From Candidatus Aerophobetes bacterium Ae_b3b (GTDB lineage Bacteria > Aerophobota > Aerophobia > Aerophobales > AE-B3A): 24,280 nt of DNA. The stretch is from assembly GCA_005223085.1 (NCBI GenBank), contig NJBP01000032.1, forward strand, positions 1 through 24,280, read 5' to 3'. A program made the position numbers and the translations under genes. Below, piece after piece: positions 3,330 through 24,280 of the stretch (positions are counted from its first letter, which is position 1; every line of letters starts with the position of its first letter). The notes under the pieces are model-generated. The model was given only the letters and a program-made list of their open reading frames with translations. It was not told the origin of the DNA and made no database searches.

Positions 3330-4349
3330 TCACGACTTAAAGTCAGACACTTGGTTTATTGGCAGAGTTTTCTTTCTTAGGAACGGCAATAGAAACTTAT
3401 TTAGCATTACTCCTCCTATTAACGCCAATCCCACAAAACTGATAAATGAGTAAGGAGGAGCGCCCATTAAAATTAATCCACTACTGAGTGAGGAAAGGAA
3501 GATCGCTCCTAAAACTGCTCCGATTACAGAGGCCCTCCCTCCACGAAGTGAACAGCCGCCAATGACACACGCAGCTATACTTTTCAGAGCCATACCATTT
3601 CCTAAGTCGGCTGAAACGGAAATCAATTCACTCGCTGCAGTCATTCCAGCAAATCCGGCAATTGTGCTACACAGTAGAAAAGCCTTCCATTTCGTTAGTC
3701 CCGGTGAAATGCCTCGTGATAAACTACTTTCTGCATTACTTCCCACAGCAAGAATGTGATTTCCGAATTTTGTGTAAAAGAGAATTATTTCAAAAACGAT
3801 GGCTAAGGCTATCATCCAGATGATAAGAGCACTCCATCCTCCTCCTATAGCCCCTGCCAACATTTGAGGCAAAAAAGAACTTTTCGTGGAGGTAGAAAGA
3901 CTTCTTATAAATCCTCGACTAATAAGATAAATTATACCTCTACCAAAAAATAACATTCCAAGTGTCGCTATTAAAGAATTGATTTCAGCTTTTGTAACTA
4001 ATAACCCGTTTATAAAGCCAAAACCTGCTGCTATTAGTGTTGCTAAAAGAAAACTCGCATATATACTTATGCTCTCCGTAAAAACAACGAAAAGTAATGC
4101 TGCTAATCCAAAAACGCTTTCCACACTAAGATCAAATTCACCGGAAGCTAGCGTGTAGCTTTGACCTGTTGCAAGCATGCCTATCCATGCACCGTTCACC
4201 AGAATTGTTTGAATAACGGGTAAGCTCAAGAAGGCTGGATTTTTAAGCGTGAACAATGTAAAAAGAAAAACAATCGAGATAACCGCACCTGCTTCTCTTC
4301 TATTTAGGAATATTTCGAAAGCTTGGATTACTCGCCCTCTTTCTTTCAC
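3330..4349 (-). CDS. Sugar ABC transporter permease (RbsC/BPD_transp_2 family)
   Basis: This 339-residue integral membrane protein is the channel subunit of the importer. It is made of long hydrophobic segments, with around eight to ten membrane spans by eye. It has the family landmark near residues 60-80, where GQSYTLASGEFDLSVES matches the usual GxxDLSVGS region of RbsC-like permeases. A glycine-rich cytoplasmic coupling region (CVIGGCSLRGGRASVIGAVLGA) lies in the last third. The start codon is GTG; an in-frame stop two codons upstream excludes a longer form. The Shine-Dalgarno sequence is weak (AAGG about 13 bases away). A strong hairpin between this gene and the binding-protein gene may keep permease output below binding-protein output. 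Confidence 0.9.
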   Translation of the reverse strand: MKERGRVIQAFEIFLNRREAGAVISIVFLFTLFTLKNPAFLSLPVIQTILVNGAWIGMLATGQSYTLASGEFDLSVESVFGLAALLFVVFTESISIYASFLLATLIAAGFGFINGLLVTKAEINSLIATLGMLFFGRGIIYLISRGFIRSLSTSTKSSFLPQMLAGAIGGGWSALIIWMIALAIVFEIILFYTKFGNHILAVGSNAESSLSRGISPGLTKWKAFLLCSTIAGFAGMTAASELISVSADLGNGMALKSIAACVIGGCSLRGGRASVIGAVLGAIFLSSLSSGLILMGAPPYSFISFVGLALIGGVMLNKFLLPFLRKKTLPINQVSDFKS

Positions 4350-4423
4350 TTCTTATGAGACCTTCCGATTCTTGTCTTTCTTCGAGTTTTCCATCTCCGT
4401 CTCTATGAGCTTTAACTGGCAGG

Positions 4424-4457
4424 CGTAGGGGGTAAACCATGAGTTTTACCCCCTACG
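4424..4457 (-). other. Intercistronic 13-bp perfect stem-loop
   Basis: CGTAGGGGGTAAA (4424-4436) pairs perfectly with TTTACCCCCTACG (4445-4457) around an 8-base loop. It sits after the binding-protein stop and before the permease start on the minus strand. There is no T-tract after it in the direction of transcription, so it is not a classic intrinsic terminator. Known importer operons often use such hairpins to protect the binding-protein message, and that is my inference here. Confidence 0.75.
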
Positions 4458-4491
4458 AATCAAGCTCAACCTGTCCGGTTTGGTATGGCAA

Positions 4492-17922: not shown

Positions 17923-18176
17923 AGAGAGGGCGAGATCGAAAACAAGAAGGGGGATTCAAGAGAGAATATCAACAAAGAGAAAGACTAGCAGCAAGCCACA
18001 AAGGTCCAAAAATTGTGCCGGACAAAAGTTAAACAATGACAGAAGGTGAATTTAATACTAGTTTTCAGACTGAGATAGATATCTTCATATTGTCATAGGG
18101 GTTGTTCATCAGACAATTCAGAAAAATCTGGGTGATATTCAAGAATTCAGCAAAAAAGTAGCTAGGGAGGGAAGAA
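17923..18176 (+). promoter_or_regulatory. Upstream region of the RiPP cassette
   Basis: This 254-base gap separates the housekeeping run from the peptide-maturation genes. No gene or obvious terminator is seen. ATTGTC (18089-18094) and GACAAT (18112-18117) form an inverted repeat with a 17-base spacer, which could be an operator or a weak promoter region (TTGTCA then ACAATT). The strong ribosome site GGGAGGGAAGAA for the PqqD-like gene is at its end. Confidence 0.35.
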
Positions 18177-18470
18177 ATGGGAGTAGCAGAAAAAGATAAA
18201 CCCATAGCCAATCCCTTAATAGTACTTCGCGAGGAGTTTGATGACTGGGCGATCCTTTTTGATCCTGATACTGGGAATGCTGTCGGTCTTAATCCGGTAG
18301 GGGTATTTATATGGAAGCTGCTTGACGGCTCTCACACAGCGGAAGACATTTTAAAAAAGCTGCGAGAGAGCTGTCGGAACGTGCCCGAGGAGGTTGAGGA
18401 TCATCTTCAGGATTTCATTCAGAGTTTAGTCGAACGAGGATTGGCTGGTTATGAAGCTAAAAAGGCCTAA
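18177..18470 (+). CDS. scmD: PqqD/RRE-like peptide chaperone of a SynChlorMet-type RiPP cassette (ScmD-like)
   Basis: This 97-residue protein is PqqD-like, a RiPP recognition element that grips the leader of a precursor peptide and presents it to radical SAM enzymes. The sequence runs VLREEFDDWAILFDPDTGNA, then GLNPVGVFIWKLLDG, then a helical C-terminus (TAEDILKKL, DFIQSLVERGLAGY). That is the winged-helix pattern of PqqD, and its wording matches my memory of ScmD, the PqqD homologue of the SynChlorMet cassette. It is the first gene of the cassette and ends six bases before the first radical SAM/SPASM gene. Its likely ligands are the two short peptides encoded downstream. I am sure of the PqqD class and fairly sure of the Scm subfamily. 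Confidence 0.85.
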   Translation: MGVAEKDKPIANPLIVLREEFDDWAILFDPDTGNAVGLNPVGVFIWKLLDGSHTAEDILKKLRESCRNVPEEVEDHLQDFIQSLVERGLAGYEAKKA

Positions 18471-18476
18471 CTTATT

Positions 18477-19601
18477 ATGAAACTAATGAGTAGCCCACAG
18501 TCCCTGGATTTGGATATCACCAACCGCTGTAATCTACGGTGTAGGTACTGCAGTCATTTCACCAGTGCCGGGGACGTAGGTCAGGATCTCGCCAAAGAAG
18601 AATGGCTCCAGTTTTTCGAGGAGTTGAATCGCTGCACGGTCATGAATCTTTGTATCTCGGGAGGAGAGCCTTTTTACCGCCAGGATCTCCCGGAGCTTAT
18701 GGAAGGGATTGTCAAGAACCGGATGCGATTTACAATACTCAGCAATGGGACCCTGATTACCAATGAGATGGCGGCGTTTTTGGCTTCTACTCATCGTTGC
18801 GACGGGGTACAGGTTTCCATTGATGGTTCCAACCCCGTGACGCACGATGCCTTTAGGGGTGAGGGTAGTTTCTCCCGGGCGATGGAGGGAATTGAGCATT
18901 TGAGGAGACACCGGGTCTCGGTACCGGTACGGGTCACCATTCATCGAGAGAATGTCCATGACCTTGAGGGGGTAGCAAGACTCCTGCTGGAAGATCTTGG
19001 GCTTCCATCATTTTGCACCAACTCCGCCTCTTTTATGGGACTTTGTCGAAGAAATGCAGAAGTCCAGCTTAGCGTTTCCGAGCGCAGCCTGGCCATGGAG
19101 AGCCTTTTGAACCTGAGCAAGAAATACAATGGCCGCATCAGTGCCATGGCTGGTCCTTTGGCTGAGGCGAGAAATTGGTTGATGATGGAACGAGCTCGAC
19201 GTGAAAGAAGGGAAAGCCTTCCCGGGGGAGGTTATCTTACCGGTTGTGGGGGGCCAATGAGCAAAATGGCGGTGCGTGCCGAGGGGGTTGTCGTTCCTTG
19301 CACTCAGCTCAACCATATGGAGCTCGGTCGCATCAATGAGGACGATCTGATAGAAGTCTGGCAGAATCATCCACAGCTTAAGCGCCTGAGGGAGCGGGGC
19401 ACTATTGCCCTGTGTGATTTTGACTTTTGTACGGACTGCGACTACATCCCTTATTGTACTGGTAGCTGTCCGGCACTCGCGTATACGATTTTGGGCAAGG
19501 AAAACCATCCCAGTCCTGATGCCTGTCTGAAAAGGTTCTTGGAGGAGGGGGGAAGACTTCCGGATGAAAGCCTGATGAATTCCTCCGGAAACAGACATTA
19601 G
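18477..19601 (+). CDS. scmE: Radical SAM/SPASM peptide-modifying enzyme (ScmE-like)
   Basis: This 374-residue enzyme is expected to modify a ribosomal peptide by radical chemistry. The SAM-cluster motif CNLRCRYC has its cysteines at 18, 22 and 25. GGEP follows in CISGGEPFYR, and VQVSIDGS is the strand typical of PqqE-like enzymes. The C-terminal SPASM domain, for auxiliary iron-sulfur clusters, carries cysteines in LTGCGG, VVPCTQL, FCTDCDYIPYCTGSCPALAY and PDACLKRF. The overall wording fits ScmE, one of the two PqqE-like proteins known in SynChlorMet cassettes. The modification is not known for the family. It has only a weak ribosome site, so coupling with the PqqD-like gene six bases upstream is likely. 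Confidence 0.87.
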   Translation: MKLMSSPQSLDLDITNRCNLRCRYCSHFTSAGDVGQDLAKEEWLQFFEELNRCTVMNLCISGGEPFYRQDLPELMEGIVKNRMRFTILSNGTLITNEMAAFLASTHRCDGVQVSIDGSNPVTHDAFRGEGSFSRAMEGIEHLRRHRVSVPVRVTIHRENVHDLEGVARLLLEDLGLPSFCTNSASFMGLCRRNAEVQLSVSERSLAMESLLNLSKKYNGRISAMAGPLAEARNWLMMERARRERRESLPGGGYLTGCGGPMSKMAVRAEGVVVPCTQLNHMELGRINEDDLIEVWQNHPQLKRLRERGTIALCDFDFCTDCDYIPYCTGSCPALAYTILGKENHPSPDACLKRFLEEGGRLPDESLMNSSGNRH

Positions 19602-19610
19602 TACTGAGAG

Positions 19611-20747
19611 ATGGTCAAGCAAATGGCCGAAAAAAAGGAAGATCGTAGATTTTCTCTCAATCAAATTTATTTTTACCTGACCGAGGGGTGTAACCTCCGC
19701 TGTCGTCATTGCTGGATTGCCCCCAAATACCAGAGTGAAAACAACTCTTATCCTTCCCTTTCTTCGGAGCTCTTTCGAGCAATAATCAAGCAGGCCAAGC
19801 CTTTGGGACTTTCTGGGGTCAAGTTAACCGGGGGGGAGCCGCTCTTGCATCCTCAGATCCACGAAATCCTGGAGGAGATTCGAGTCCATGATCTCCGGCT
19901 CACCGTAGAGACTAATGGTGTTCTGTGTACGGAAGGTCTGGCCCAGAAGATGGCTGCGTGTAAGAATCCTTTTGTCGCAGTGAGTTTGGATGCAGCCGAT
20001 GCGGAAACCCACGAGTGGGTAAGGGGAGTTTCGGGCTCTTTTGAGGCGGCCAAGGAGGGCCTTCGGAATCTGGTAGAGGCGGATCTTAGGCCTCAAGTCA
20101 TTATGACGATTATGCCTGGCAACAAAGACCAGATGGAGGCGGTGGTGCATCTGGCTGAATTGCTGGGTTGTGGTTCGGTCAAGTTCAACATTCTCCAGCC
20201 CATCGCCAGGGGTGAAAAGATGCATGAGGAAGGCCAGACCCTCGGTATTGAAGAGCTGGTGGAAGTGGGAGAGTGGGTAGAAAACGTTCTTTCTTCCTCA
20301 ACCAACCTGCGGCTTTACTACTCCCATCCGCTTGCTTTCCGCCCCCTTTCTAGGATGTTTGGCGATAAGGGGGATGGATGTGGGGTTTGCGGGATTCTCG
20401 GCATTCTGGGGGTTCTGGCAGATGGTTCCTATGCCCTCTGCGGTATTGGGGAGACGGTACCGGAGCTGATTTTGGGGCATGCAGCGAAGGATGACCTGGA
20501 GGACGTCTGGGACCGCGCTCCGGTTCTTCAGGAGCTGCGTGAGGGACTTCCCCAGCGTCTCGAAGGGATCTGCGGGCAATGTCTCATGCAGAGTCGTTGC
20601 CTGGGAAACTGCATTGCCGAGAATTACTACCGGAGTCAGAGTCTCTGGGCGCCCTTCTGGTTCTGCGAGGAAACCCACAAGCGAGGACTATTTCCGGGGT
20701 CACGATTAGCCCTGCAAAGATCGAGGAGCGGCATCGCGAGCCAATGA
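19611..20747 (+). CDS. scmF: Radical SAM/SPASM peptide-modifying enzyme (ScmF-like)
   Basis: This is the second radical SAM/SPASM enzyme of the cassette, with 378 residues. The motif CNLRCRHCW has its cysteines at 27, 31 and 34, followed by LTGGEPLLHP and VAVSLDAAD. The SPASM region has cysteines in DGCGVCGILG, ALCGIGE, GICGQCLMQSRCLGNC and FWFCEETHKRG. The start phrase FSLNQIYFYLTEGCNLRCRHC resembles ScmF. The two enzymes clearly differ, so they probably carry out two different modifications or act on different residues. An in-frame ATG at 19623 is an alternative start. The stop overlaps the ATG of a small ORF (ATGA). The two peptide genes lie directly downstream. Confidence 0.87.
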   Translation: MVKQMAEKKEDRRFSLNQIYFYLTEGCNLRCRHCWIAPKYQSENNSYPSLSSELFRAIIKQAKPLGLSGVKLTGGEPLLHPQIHEILEEIRVHDLRLTVETNGVLCTEGLAQKMAACKNPFVAVSLDAADAETHEWVRGVSGSFEAAKEGLRNLVEADLRPQVIMTIMPGNKDQMEAVVHLAELLGCGSVKFNILQPIARGEKMHEEGQTLGIEELVEVGEWVENVLSSSTNLRLYYSHPLAFRPLSRMFGDKGDGCGVCGILGILGVLADGSYALCGIGETVPELILGHAAKDDLEDVWDRAPVLQELREGLPQRLEGICGQCLMQSRCLGNCIAENYYRSQSLWAPFWFCEETHKRGLFPGSRLALQRSRSGIASQ

Positions 20748-20899
20748 GGAGATCTAGTACGTTTATAAAAGCTTATGAGCAAGAGCCCGTTTGGTCCGGA
20801 AAGAGGCGGCCCGGAGAGTATCCTAAAAATTCGCTCTGGTGGACCGGGGCGGGACTCTCAGCGCTATGTCTATATTGCGAGAGACCCCAGGTCCCTTAG
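20744..20899 (+). CDS. Small ORF coupled to the ScmF-like gene (51 codons, uncertain)
   Basis: A 51-residue frame starts at an ATG overlapping the ScmF-like stop (ATGA), the same coupling used by other gene pairs in this window. Its C-terminal third is encoded by the first part of the duplicated leader. The translation is rich in W, R and P and has two cysteines (LSALCLYCERPQVP), with no recognised domain. A competing frame at 20775-20918 (47 codons, MSKSPFGPERGG...) covers the same DNA. The differences between the two repeat copies are too few to show which frame, if any, is selected. It could be an extra peptide, a translated leader or just open sequence. Confidence 0.25.
   Translation: MRRSSTFIKAYEQEPVWSGKRRPGEYPKNSLWWTGAGLSALCLYCERPQVP
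20841..20894 (+). other. Conserved leader stem-loop of precursor gene A
   Basis: GGACC (20841-20845) pairs with GGTCC (20890-20894), GGGG (20846-20849) with CCCC (20885-20888), and CTCTC (20855-20859) with GAGAG (20879-20883), with small bulges. None of the six differences between repeat copies falls in a paired base. No T-tract follows. It may control translation or stability of the small peptide message. Confidence 0.5.
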
Positions 20900-20954
20900 G
20901 ATTCAAGCAAATAATTAGCTCATAAAGGAGGTCATCATGGGAAAGAATGCGAAG
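20841..20954 (+). repeat. 114-bp direct repeat, copy 1: leader plus start of precursor gene A
   Basis: This segment matches 21128-21241 at 108 of 114 positions without gaps. The differences are at 20864, 20878, 20897, 20916, 20919 and 20951. It covers the stem-loop leader, the AAAGGAGG ribosome site and the first six codons of the peptide gene. The spacing of 287 bases between copies points to a tandem duplication of a leader-plus-precursor unit. Confidence 0.95.
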
Positions 20955-21089
20955 AACAAGGCAATCATGGAATATGACAGGCCTCGGCTTATCGAGCTGC
21001 GGCCCTCTGTACCTGCGTGGGGCTGTCAAGCGGGAGGTCCGGTGGGTTGCGACAATGGTTCGTTGCCCTATCCGAACCAGTTTGCATAG
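20937..21089 (+). CDS. Putative RiPP precursor peptide A (50 aa)
   Basis: This 50-codon gene has an ideal AAAGGAGG site five bases before the ATG. The leader starts MGKNAKNKAIME and has YDRPRLIEL at 13-21, fitting the YxxPxLxxL pattern that recognition-element proteins bind in lasso and related leaders. The C-terminal part has C30, a GG at 33-34, C38 and then DNGSLP, ending YPNQFA. Peptide B shares the same first six residues, the Y-x-R-P-x-L-x-E-L motif and the GG ... C ... NGSLP block. It sits between two radical SAM/SPASM genes and an HPrK-like gene, where a substrate is expected. Likely modified residues are the cysteines, the asparagine or the serine, but the product is unknown. A true gene is likely; its role is inference. 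Confidence 0.8.
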   Translation: MGKNAKNKAIMEYDRPRLIELRPSVPAWGCQAGGPVGCDNGSLPYPNQFA

Positions 21090-21127
21090 AGACCGTTGGG
21101 TTCTGGGACCGGCCCGCAGCAATCTTA

Positions 21128-21181
21128 GGACCGGGGCGGGACTCTCAGCGTTATGTCTATATTGGGAGAGACCCCAGGTCC
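21128..21181 (+). other. Conserved leader stem-loop of precursor gene B
   Basis: The same pairing as in the first copy is kept: GGACC with GGTCC, GGGG with CCCC and CTCTC with GAGAG. The two base changes inside this stretch that fall between the arms are in the loop. Keeping the stem while the loop drifts hints at selection, though the sample is very small. Confidence 0.5.
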
Positions 21182-21241
21182 CTCAGGATTCAAGCAAATA
21201 ATCAGGTCATAAAGGAGGTCATCATGGGAAAGAATGCCAAG
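21128..21241 (+). repeat. 114-bp direct repeat, copy 2: leader plus start of precursor gene B
   Basis: This is the partner of 20841-20954, with six substitutions and no gaps. After it the two units diverge quickly, except for shared codons for the leader motif and the NGSLP block. Confidence 0.95.
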
Positions 21242-21352
21242 GAGGAAAAGCCGGTCTATGAGAGGCCGAAACTAGTGGAACTGGACACACCAAGCGCTTC
21301 CGGGGGCCTAGCATGTGTTAATAATGGGTCCCTTCCCAATCATATACCTTAA
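21224..21352 (+). CDS. Putative RiPP precursor peptide B (42 aa)
   Basis: This 42-codon paralogue of peptide A has the same AAAGGAGG site and spacing. The leader begins MGKNAKEEKP and has YERPKLVEL at residues 12-20. This is followed by a short linker (DTPSAS), GG at 27-28, then C31, VNNGSLP and NHIP. Compared with A it has lost the first cysteine and eight residues, but the recognition motif and the C ... NGSLP core survive. Conserved leader plus partly varied core is the normal pattern for duplicated RiPP substrates. A double-glycine cut would leave a 14-residue core, but that site is only a guess. It is too short for usual gene callers and is normally missed. Confidence 0.8.
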   Translation: MGKNAKEEKPVYERPKLVELDTPSASGGLACVNNGSLPNHIP

Positions 21353-21510
21353 CCTAGTGTGGCGCGGAGACCACCTAGGTCCCGAGGTTGTGTTGAGGGG
21401 TGTCCGGGGGGGTACTGCGGCCGGTGGTAGGTCTGCGGTGATGAGTGATGAATATCTGTCGGGGAATTGAGTCCGGTGGGGACGGTGGAAATTTAGGGTC
21501 AACGGGTACT

Positions 21511-22416
21511 ATGGGCAAGATCGTGTATTCGCTGGTGCTGGGCGACGGGAGTAGCTGGTGCCTGGTGGGCACGCCAGATTCGAGACCATGGGTGGAAAAG
21601 TTCGCCTCGATCATGAAGCTCGCTCCTGATGAAGGTGATCGGGATAGCGAACAGCCGAGAAAGCTCGTTTTCGTGAGACATTCAGGACAAGCTGGGTATG
21701 CGGAGCCGACGGATCTCTTCAGCCCGAGACCCGAGGAGGAGCTGCCGCAGAGTGGATGGGAGAGTCGTGATTGGAGGTCACTCCGGTTTTGGCAGCACCC
21801 AGCGGTGCCACACATCATTTGTGAAATCGGGAATGAGGGGAATCATGAGCTGGATATCATAAGGATGTGGACCTCTCTATGTATCCTTTATTTAGGAGTA
21901 CTGGACTCAGGAGGACTTGCCCTGCACGCTGCCCTTGTTGAGCAAGATGGCAAGGGGATCTTACTGGCTGGTCCCGGTGGTTCGGGAAAATCCACTTCAT
22001 GTGGTCGCCTTCCCCGTCCCTGGTGGGTCTGGAGTGATGATCAATCTCTCATTGTTCGTGACAACCAAAAAGGGTACCTGGTTCACCCCACTCCCACCTG
22101 GAGTGATTATCTCTACCGACGATCCGCACAGACGTGGAAGGTTGAGCACCATCTTCCCCTTGAGGCCATATTTTTTATGGAACAGGCCGGATCCGACGAA
22201 CTAGTTCCCATGGGGCAAGGCAAGGCAGCGGTATCCATCAACCATTCCTCCACTGAGGTGTGTCGTCCCATGTGGTGGAATGTCAGTAAGGAGGAGAGAA
22301 AACTTAAGGAGAGGATTTTTGACAATTCCTGCCAACTGGCCCGAGCTATCCCTGCCTATGTCCTTCGTGTCAGCCTTACTGGCCGATTCTGGGAAGAGAT
22401 GGAGAAGGTTCTTTAA
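21511..22416 (+). CDS. scmC: HPrK-like P-loop protein of the cassette (ScmC-like)
   Basis: This protein resembles the HPr-kinase-related proteins found beside PqqD-type genes and fits the conserved protein ScmC of SynChlorMet cassettes. The sequence GGLALHAALVEQDGKGILLA leads into Walker A GPGGSGKST (154-162 from the chosen start) and then WSDDQ, the usual HPrK order of histidine, P-loop and acidic pair. In some lasso peptide clusters such kinases phosphorylate the C-terminal serine of the substrate, so the serine of NGSLP is a possible target here. In-frame GTG/ATG starts at 21445/21448 would add a glycine-rich extension. I prefer 21511 because the conserved part begins YSLVLGDG. The ribosome site is weak for either start. 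Confidence 0.78.
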   Translation: MGKIVYSLVLGDGSSWCLVGTPDSRPWVEKFASIMKLAPDEGDRDSEQPRKLVFVRHSGQAGYAEPTDLFSPRPEEELPQSGWESRDWRSLRFWQHPAVPHIICEIGNEGNHELDIIRMWTSLCILYLGVLDSGGLALHAALVEQDGKGILLAGPGGSGKSTSCGRLPRPWWVWSDDQSLIVRDNQKGYLVHPTPTWSDYLYRRSAQTWKVEHHLPLEAIFFMEQAGSDELVPMGQGKAAVSINHSSTEVCRPMWWNVSKEERKLKERIFDNSCQLARAIPAYVLRVSLTGRFWEEMEKVL

Positions 22417-22417
22417 G

Positions 22418-23047
22418 ATGCCTGATGATGCTCGGAAATCTATATCTTATCTAGGACCCAGCATGAATCCCACCTTGAAGGCCCCTGACTTACTCCAGGT
22501 GGTGCCTTACCAGGGGAAAGAAATTCACCGTGGGGATGTGATTGTTTTTTGTCCTCCGGGAAGTAAGGGCATGATTGTTCACCGGGTCATCTCCGTTGAT
22601 GCTCAAGGAGTAAGGACCCGGGGGGACCACAATACTGACCTTGATCGCTGGGTCCTCAGCCCTGATCGCATCGTGGGACGGGTGGTCGGGGCCCAATGGG
22701 GAAACTGGCGGCGCTCGATTTCCGGGGGCCTCAGGGGCCGATCATACGCGTTTGGAGTCAGAATCATCCGGATGATAGACTCCAAGATATCTCCCCTACT
22801 CCACCCCATCTATCACCGCCTCGCCCAAACAGGCATCCTCAGACGATGGCTACCTTTCGGGGTGGACACCCGTATCCTTTGTTTTAACCGATCTACGGGA
22901 ACCGAGCTTCAGCTCCTTCTGGGTCGGAGAGTAATCGGCCGGCTCCTGCCGGGCAGGAATGAATGGGTGATCCGGCGACCTTTTCGGCTATTGGTGAATG
23001 AGGCGTCCCTTCCTCGAGGAGAACCCGATCATTCAGGGTCTTGTTAA
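22418..23047 (+). CDS. S26 (SEC11-type Ser-His) peptidase, soluble form
   Basis: This 209-residue protein has the catalytic core of a signal-peptidase-like S26 enzyme. Ser15 lies in GPSMNPTL, the RGDVIVF box follows at 38-44, His55 is in IVHRVISVD where bacterial leader peptidases have lysine, and Asp70 is in RTRGDHN. Ser-His-Asp is the archaeal/eukaryotic SEC11 arrangement. No N-terminal membrane anchor is seen, unusual for this family. It is preceded by GGAGAAGG and begins one base after the HPrK-like stop; the longer in-frame start inside that gene is unlikely. The residues after about 100 have no recognised domain. It is a good candidate for cutting the leader off the two precursor peptides, but this is inferred from position only. 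Confidence 0.8.
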   Translation: MPDDARKSISYLGPSMNPTLKAPDLLQVVPYQGKEIHRGDVIVFCPPGSKGMIVHRVISVDAQGVRTRGDHNTDLDRWVLSPDRIVGRVVGAQWGNWRRSISGGLRGRSYAFGVRIIRMIDSKISPLLHPIYHRLAQTGILRRWLPFGVDTRILCFNRSTGTELQLLLGRRVIGRLLPGRNEWVIRRPFRLLVNEASLPRGEPDHSGSC

Positions 23048-23133: not shown

Positions 23134-23514
23134 TTAGTTGTTAGTAATTTCGGCCTTTAGTTTTCCGATGCGAGAGAGACTCTGAAGAGAAGAGAGGTTA
23201 AGTCTGCGCCTATGTTTGCCGAATAAGATAAATGGACGAAGAAAATAATATAGGTAAATCCACTTAGAGGAAGGAGAAAGATTGTAAAGATTATAGTATT
23301 GAACCAAAATAGCCGAAGGAGGAAACGCCTTTTTTATTAAGTACTTTATTCTGGGAATTATTCCTTTTTCCCGGAGCAGCTCAAACACTGCCTCAACAAT
23401 AGGATCGGTTAAATTATCGAGGTTGAGGAAAGATTCATTTTCCAGTAGATATGAGAGTTTGTATTCACTGACGGTGGGTTCAAACTTTTTTAAAATTTCC
23501 TTCAAAACGGCTAC
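23134..23514 (-). pseudogene. C-terminal fragment of an NTP_transf_5-like nucleotidyltransferase
   Basis: This minus-strand AT-rich frame ends KAEITNN and has the tail FPPSAILVQYYNLY ... WIYLYYFLRPFILFGKHRRR, which looks like the C-terminus of the uncharacterised nucleotidyltransferases (NTP_transf_5). These are frequent in lasso and PqqD-containing clusters. The nucleotide-binding N-terminal half is missing: coding sequence runs into GC-rich foreign DNA at about 23505-23520. The family assignment is by eye and moderate. It faces the cassette convergently. Whether the gene is truly broken or only cut by an assembly join cannot be told here. Confidence 0.45.
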
Positions 23515-23899
23515 CATCCGTAAGGCTGAGCACGCCCTCTCCAGGGGGTGGTGCGACCTGGTTAACATCCGCATCTCCAAGTGTGGTGGGGTGTTGGCGA
23601 GCGTGCGCCTGCTGGCCGCGGTCCGGGAGGCCGGGGGACGGGCCCAGTTGGGTTGTCAGGTCGGTGAGACGGGTCTGCTGTCGGCGGCCGGCCGACACCT
23701 GGCTTGTACCCTCAACCACCTGGAATATCTGGAAGGCGCCTACGACCGCTATCTGCTGTCGGTGCAGTTGACGGAGCCCGACATAACCTTCGGCACTGGT
23801 GGCTGGGCCCCGGCCTTGAGGGGACCCGGCCTGGGAGTGACGGTCCGCCAGCGAGTTCTCGAACGGTTCTGCGTCAGGCAATCAGCAGTTCCCTGGTAA
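23510..23899 (+). CDS. C-terminal fragment of an enolase-superfamily enzyme (dipeptide epimerase-like)
   Basis: This GC-rich frame, missing its 5' part, reads RGWCDLVNIRISKCGGVLAS followed by LGCQVGETGLLSAAGRHLA. These are landmarks of the muconate-lactonising/dipeptide-epimerase group of the enolase superfamily, and the lysine before CGG is the second catalytic lysine. The N-terminal capping domain and the metal-binding aspartate/glutamate strands are absent. The in-frame start at 23423 lies in AT-rich sequence belonging to the other gene and is not a real start. An alpha/beta hydrolase gene follows 12 bases later, probably in the same operon. Substrate class is uncertain. Confidence 0.7.
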   Translation, partial: ATIRKAEHALSRGWCDLVNIRISKCGGVLASVRLLAAVREAGGRAQLGCQVGETGLLSAAGRHLACTLNHLEYLEGAYDRYLLSVQLTEPDITFGTGGWAPALRGPGLGVTVRQRVLERFCVRQSAVPW

Positions 23900-23911
23900 A
23901 AGGGGCCATCC

Positions 23912-24280
23912 GTGCAGCCAACGGCCCAGCGCTCCGCGGCCACCGGCCTGTGGGAGCGAGTCTGGTCTGTGCCCGAGTGCCGGGCCCTTGTGGTGATGCT
24001 CCATGGCGTTCAGAGCCATAGCGGATGGTATATAGGATCCGCTGAGCGGTTGGCCCGGGCCGGGGTGGCGGTGATAGCACCCGACCGGCGTGGGTCGGGC
24101 ATGAACAGCAACAATCGCGGCGACACCCCCAACTACCGGGTCCTCTTGGAGGACGTGCGACGAACGGTGGTGGAAGCCCGCCGGCTCTTCCCCGGACGGC
24201 CGCCCCACCTGGCGGGGATTTCCTGGGGTGGGAAGTTGGCCACGGCCTTTGCCCTGCGATACCGGCACCTGCTCCGGAGC
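23912..24280 (+). CDS. Alpha/beta hydrolase, N-terminal part (runs off the window)
   Basis: A GTG start with AAAAGGGG six bases upstream opens a frame that continues to the window end (123 codons). It shows the hydrolase landmarks MLHGVQSHSGWY (oxyanion-hole region), APDRRGSGMN and the nucleophile elbow GISWGG with the serine at residue 104. The form resembles serine aminopeptidase/monoacylglycerol-lipase-like hydrolases. The catalytic aspartate and histidine would lie beyond the window. Composition is very GC-rich, like the epimerase fragment before it. With an epimerase of the dipeptide type, a peptidase-like role is conceivable but not shown. Confidence 0.72.
   Translation, partial: MQPTAQRSAATGLWERVWSVPECRALVVMLHGVQSHSGWYIGSAERLARAGVAVIAPDRRGSGMNSNNRGDTPNYRVLLEDVRRTVVEARRLFPGRPPHLAGISWGGKLATAFALRYRHLLRS

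Follow-up and report, generated by a model that had tools for sequence, protein, structure and literature searches.

The window analysed here is a stretch of 24,280 nucleotides from Candidatus Aerophobetes bacterium Ae_b3b, and towards its right end it carries, on the forward strand, the genes of a SynChlorMet (SCM) cassette. The first of these, scmD (18177-18470), encodes a PqqD-family peptide chaperone, or stand-alone RiPP recognition element (RRE), with scores of 138.8 bits against TIGR04248 (cut-off 100) and 63.5 bits against Pfam PqqD. It is followed by genes for two radical SAM/SPASM maturases: ScmE (18477-19601; cluster motif CNLRCRYC; 632 bits against TIGR04250, cut-off 400), whose nearest solved structures are SkfB, PqqE and 5wgg, and ScmF (19611-20747; CNLRCRHC; 604 bits against TIGR04251, cut-off 400), scores that bear out a sequence-only reading of this DNA in which the modifying enzymes had been taken for radical SAM/SPASM proteins. 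Further downstream lie scmC (21445-22416, with an in-frame alternative ATG at 21511), which encodes a candidate HPrK/PEPCK-like peptide kinase with the motifs LHAA ... GPGGSGKST ... SDD (301.6 bits against TIGR04249, cut-off 125), and a gene (22418-23047) for an S26-family signal-peptidase-like protein, a candidate leader protease with GPSMNP, IVHRV and GDHN motifs. The latter matches Pfam Peptidase_S26 and lies just over the cut-off of TIGR02228, an archaeal-type signal peptidase model (53.6 versus 51.85 bits). ScmC, ScmD, ScmE and ScmF all exceed the curated NCBIfam equivalog cut-offs by wide margins, which places the cassette in the SCM system.

Between scmF and scmC are two short ORFs on the same strand. 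The first (20937-21089) encodes a ScmA-type peptide of 50 residues, with the leader YDRPRLIEL and a two-unit core, CQAGGPVG-CDNGSLP; the second (21224-21352) encodes one of 42 residues, with the leader YERPKLVEL and a one-unit core, CVNNGSLP.

Two short ORFs behind a duplicated 5' region

The 50- and 42-residue frames, and the perfect ribosome sites that had been claimed for them, are both present: the sequence upstream of each ATG is AAAGGAGGTCATC, with a full Shine-Dalgarno (AAGGAGG) at both ORFs. The two peptides also have in common, as had been stated, the start MGKNAK, the leader motif Y-x-R-P-x-L-x-E-L and the tail C..NGSLP. Among the 15 codons of these motif blocks that lie outside MGKNAK, differences between the two genes number 3, 1 and 10 at the first, second and third codon positions; seven codons differ silently and three conservatively (D/E, R/K and I/V). 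Such a third-position bias in shared motif blocks argues for constraint at the protein level on both frames, and the substitution pattern, which had been put forward as a check on the two ORFs, thus favours them. Judged by their codons, both short ORFs are genes under coding constraint.

NCBIfam and Pfam protein scans gave no match for either peptide. A hold-out profile, built only from the precursors of other genomes with the window left out, was scored against 699 six-frame segments of the window, and here peptides 1 and 2 ranked first and second, at 15.3 and 12.2 bits, the best of 40 shuffles reaching 10.7 bits. Precursors of other genomes thus find both peptides; the sampled genomes of the window's own genus, family and order are without the cassette.

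The shared start of the peptides has a separate explanation that was overlooked in the earlier reading, for the first six codons are part of a 114-nt duplication (20841-20954 versus 21128-21241, 95% identical). The duplication takes in 96 nt of 5' untranslated sequence, the first copy of which, with its AAGGAGG (20841-20936), is identical at 91 of 96 positions to the second (21128-21223), and DNA similarity between the two precursor genes ends after codon 6. Since the 5' region is near-identical while the motif blocks have diverged, the pair appears to be a mosaic, with an old divergence of leader and core behind a 5' region that was recently duplicated or homogenised. An arrangement of this kind suggests either that gene conversion has taken place or that precursor bodies have been exchanged like cassettes behind one 5' region. 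An RNA element was considered for the duplicated 5' region and rejected, folding energies being no better than those of shuffles (z of -0.78 and +1.05), and an Rfam scan of the region gave no match.

Related cassettes and the architecture of their precursors

A scan with a ScmE alignment, covering one genome per species for 84,980 species, recovered 76 loci, 59 of them SCM-type (L045-L103) and 17 unrelated. The 59 loci have the layout D-E-F-(precursor)-C-S26, and the D-E-F-C-S26 gene order recurs in Calditrichota, Desulfobacterota, Chlorobiota, Acidobacteriota, Chloroflexota, candidate division WOR-3, Lentisphaerota, methanogens and others. In the ScmE tree, the window belongs to a 19-row clade set against a 37-row sister clade, and groups with rows from Desulfobacterales, Calditrichota and Nitrospirota (100/97), so that taxonomy and the ScmE tree disagree. 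No ScmD above the cut-off occurs in any sampled genome of the window's genus, family or order, and GC content, about 0.45 ahead of the cassette, climbs to 0.53-0.55 where the cassette starts (18000-18500). The simplest reading of the cassette's origin, as judged from such features, is horizontal acquisition; alternatively, it may be a binning or assembly artefact. At the right end of the window (23134-24280), two apparent fragments, one of the enolase superfamily and truncated at its N-terminus (23423-23899), the other hydrolase-like, lie beside a minus-strand ORF, an arrangement that looks like a rearrangement scar or an assembly junction.

Precursors were sought in the relatives with a strict rule, under which a small ORF had to be led by a ribosome-binding site, carry a [YFW]xxP leader and contain two or more CxxG units. 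Cassette spans hold 12.6 such ORFs per 100 kb; the figure for shuffled sequence is 0.16 per 100 kb, and 231 kb of control loci gave a single one. At least one is found in 40 of 60 loci, the window counted, with more under looser criteria. A profile made from 39 aligned peptides has a match in all 20 cassette genomes tested, 19 of them credible; the weak match in the L049 genome falls inside its ScmD gene and was discounted, and in the L059 and L061 genomes the match and the ScmE locus are on separate contigs. When the profile was run on 60 relatives and the window's own genome, strong full-length matches were confined to G060 and G045, both of which have cassettes, three others giving weak partial matches (E 1.7e-4 to 7e-3).

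The leaders of the 39 precursors are highly conserved, with Y at position 0 in 37, P at +3 in all 39 and L at +8 in 35. Beyond the leader, 188 of 189 Cys residues lie in C-x2-G or C-x3-G, within a unit of the form C-x2/3-G-[S/T/G]-x-[A/P] that is present in one to nine copies per precursor at a spacing that peaks at 10 residues. S, T and G are the commonest residues at position +4 of the unit, and at +6 an A or P stands in 65% of cases. The window peptides, at two units and one, have the fewest among the aligned precursors, although the Myxococcota cassette L057 has a similar precursor of 50 residues and two units; the unit of the 42-mer is of the C-x3-G kind, not C-x2-G. An invariant core of Cys plus Asn-Gly-Ser-Leu-Pro, as the sequence-only reading had supposed, does not survive comparison with these 39 relatives, which show NGSLP to be the tail of a repeat unit; the window peptides hold one or two copies of this unit.

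In Methanospirillum hungatei (L091:4768-5037 and 4272-4481), the precursors join YEKP to a Nif11/NHLP-like leader that ends in LxxxVSGG, with CxxGG units after it; such a hybrid leader suggests double-glycine cleavage. In a Lentisphaeria cassette (L054:43-900), ScmD is preceded by several precursor ORFs in tandem, whose units include CFESGNS. The genome of the window itself holds a second PqqD and radical SAM pair (L004:1073-2674, contig C14 of G000), followed by a 62-residue ORF whose leader reads YQKP and which contains three Cys (MKKMAKKSKSVKVKKPYQKPLINQV...); by its sequence this is likely a separate RiPP system, situated beside a Wzc-like gene.

The SCM precursor has a name in NCBIfam, ScmA (TIGR04252, 'SCM_precur_ScmA', 49 positions, cut-off 35 bits). 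Neither window peptide matches this model in the protein scan, nor at E 10 in a search of the window's own genome, which returned as its sole match an unrelated stretch elsewhere. Among the 39 related precursors, TIGR04252 gives nine weak matches, the best at 1.3e-4, which indicates that the model is narrow, and its cut-off is reached in none of the 20 cassette genomes; thus the curated model misses most of the precursor family. Both peptides fall within the wider ScmA-type group as defined here, by their SCM cassette, YxxP leader and Cys in C-x2/3-G units. The precursor kind is one already recognised, and by sequence these two peptides are short members beyond the reach of TIGR04252. The suggestion that they are RiPP precursors of a new class stands in its first part, the peptides having a YxxPxL leader and radical SAM/SPASM genes beside them, and finds no support in its second, since a named family exists. 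Our search, which covered the open-licence literature, found no paper on the SCM cassette and no reported product.

A proposed maturation pathway and its alternatives

Taken together, the gene identities, the conserved leaders and cores, the coding constraint, the gene order and fusions, and the kinase fold point to a reading to which we give a probability of roughly 0.85, in which both ORFs encode precursors of the SCM cassette, of a divergent and unusually short ScmA type, that would be matured by ScmD, ScmE, ScmF, ScmC and the S26 protease.

In the first step of this pathway, ScmD would bind the YxRPxLxEL leader and present the peptide. For lasso RREs, YxxP has been characterised or mapped as a recognition sequence, and a W/Y/LxxP/L/I variant group includes PqqD and the sactipeptide RRE StsC (PMC12710340), which makes ScmD the expected leader binder. 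The YxxP...L leader, likened earlier to the element bound by recognition proteins of lasso pathways, is indeed found here, as YDRPRL and YERPKL in company with ScmD. Because such recognition is common to lasso RREs, PqqD and StsC, its combination with radical SAM enzymes has precedent. A new class argued from a lasso-like leader plus radical SAM enzymes was likewise ruled out, as YxxP recognition is shared by several RiPP classes (PMC12710340).

ScmE and ScmF would then act on the Cys of each C-x2/3-G-[S/T/G]-x-[A/P] unit, the likeliest product being a thioether crosslink inside the unit, and may work as a complex, as TrnC and TrnD do. Thioether formation is our first choice for the core chemistry, favoured by a modest degree, because Cys is the sole reactive residue in every unit and the closest solved relatives of ScmE include SkfB, described as a sactisynthase (PMC6231123). 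The main competitor, somewhat less probable and still substantial, is that the cores have no thioethers, ScmE and ScmF instead carrying out epimerisation, C-C crosslinking or a side-chain or backbone change, with the Cys-Gly units kept for disulfides or metal. Both enzymes do resemble the non-thioether enzymes WgkB, AhbD, NirJ and PqqE, and metal binding would be possible for a repeat rich in Gly, Ser and Ala with Cys at regular intervals; the near-complete placement of Cys in C-x2/3-G and the presence of SkfB among the closest solved relatives weigh against it.

ScmC would phosphorylate a Ser or Thr that follows the unit Gly. A Ser or Thr within two residues after this Gly is found in 63% of units versus 34% expected. 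The AF2 model of ScmC (mean pLDDT 87.8) has a full-length structural match in PEPCK (Z 14.6, rmsd 4.1 over 247 residues), and a profile search matches HPr kinase/phosphorylase (1jb1/1ko7, E 6e-4). When the kinase motif was sought by regular expression, 0 of 28 and then 16 of 31 proteins matched, the first P-loop Gly being variable, and conservation was therefore taken from the ScmC alignment, in which His142, Gly162 and Lys163 are invariant and Asp179/Asp180 nearly so. The lasso precursor kinase BsfK depends on a catalytic His, the P-loop Lys and Asp-Asp, as well as on an RRE and a YxxPxL leader (PMC10368454); the alignment shows that these catalytic residues are retained in ScmC, which by modelled fold and catalytic residues qualifies as a candidate HPrK-like precursor kinase.

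The S26 Ser/His protease would then remove the leader. The SMxP and HRV motifs are found in 21 of 29 S26 proteins, and neither signal peptidase nor S26 is mentioned in a review of RiPP leader proteases (PMC10885120). Elsewhere, S26 is fused to ScmC in nine loci and PqqD to ScmE in three, fusions that tie these activities to one pathway. What we infer, as distinct from what we observe, is the ScmE/ScmF chemistry, the sites of phosphorylation and cleavage, the export route and the biological role.

A further possibility, improbable on balance, is that one or both peptides are decaying relics of a horizontally acquired cassette, stripped of most of their units and no longer subject to maturation. 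The low number of units, the absence of the cassette from sampled relatives and the GC shift would fit such decay, but all enzymes are intact and above cut-off, the motif codons are biased to silent change, the Shine-Dalgarno sites are full and a similar two-unit precursor exists in the Myxococcota cassette. A lasso peptide, or a lasso/radical-SAM hybrid class, is very improbable, for although YxxPxL leader, PqqD and HPrK-like kinase co-occur in kinase-bearing lasso clusters (PMC10368454), the scanned cassette proteins include no lasso cyclase (Asn-synthetase-like) or B2 transglutaminase-like protease, and the YxxP leader is common to several RiPP classes (PMC12710340).

The substrate of the SCM cassette is here defined by a unit common to methanogens and many bacterial phyla. 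We tentatively suggest, as an idea with the odds against it, an SCM-type RiPP class whose repeated C-x-x-G-[S/T]-x-[A/P] units undergo both radical crosslinking and phosphorylation, the one- and two-unit peptides of the window being minimal members. As a minimal substrate the single-Cys 42-residue precursor is attractive, since it offers a single potential crosslink site and hence a simple mass-spectrometry question, and makes tractable the joint role of two radical SAM enzymes, a kinase and an S26 protease.

Comparison with known systems

The closest known system is ScmA/SynChlorMet itself, which the window resembles in ScmC, ScmD, ScmE and ScmF above cut-offs, in a YxxP leader followed by CxxG units and in a peptide length close to the 49-position model. 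It differs in that each cassette has two diverged precursor copies, preceded by a 5' region that is duplicated, and in precursors that match TIGR04252 not at all and have one or two units only. Kinase-bearing lasso clusters (paeninodin, BsfK) have in common with the window a YxxPxL leader, a PqqD-type RRE and an HPrK-like precursor kinase, whereas the window is without the cyclase and B2 protease and has two radical SAM/SPASM enzymes, an S26 protease and a Cys-repeat core. Nucleotidyltransferase-like ORFs, read from translations, adjoin two SCM-type cassettes (L057:11306-12000 and L041:9559-10656) and recall the kinase and nucleotidyltransferase pairs of some lasso clusters. With the thioether radical-SAM RiPPs (thuricin CD TrnC/TrnD, SkfB, StsB/StsC and ranthipeptides), the cassette shares radical SAM/SPASM enzymes and Cys cores; the SPASM radical SAM enzyme type that installs the Cys S-to-carbon thioether of sactipeptides and ranthipeptides is present. 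In the case of thuricin CD, two radical SAM enzymes likewise accompany two precursors, and TrnC and TrnD work as a complex (PMC12093266). The SCM system differs from this group in its Cys spacing and CxxG unit, and in having a kinase and an S26 protease.
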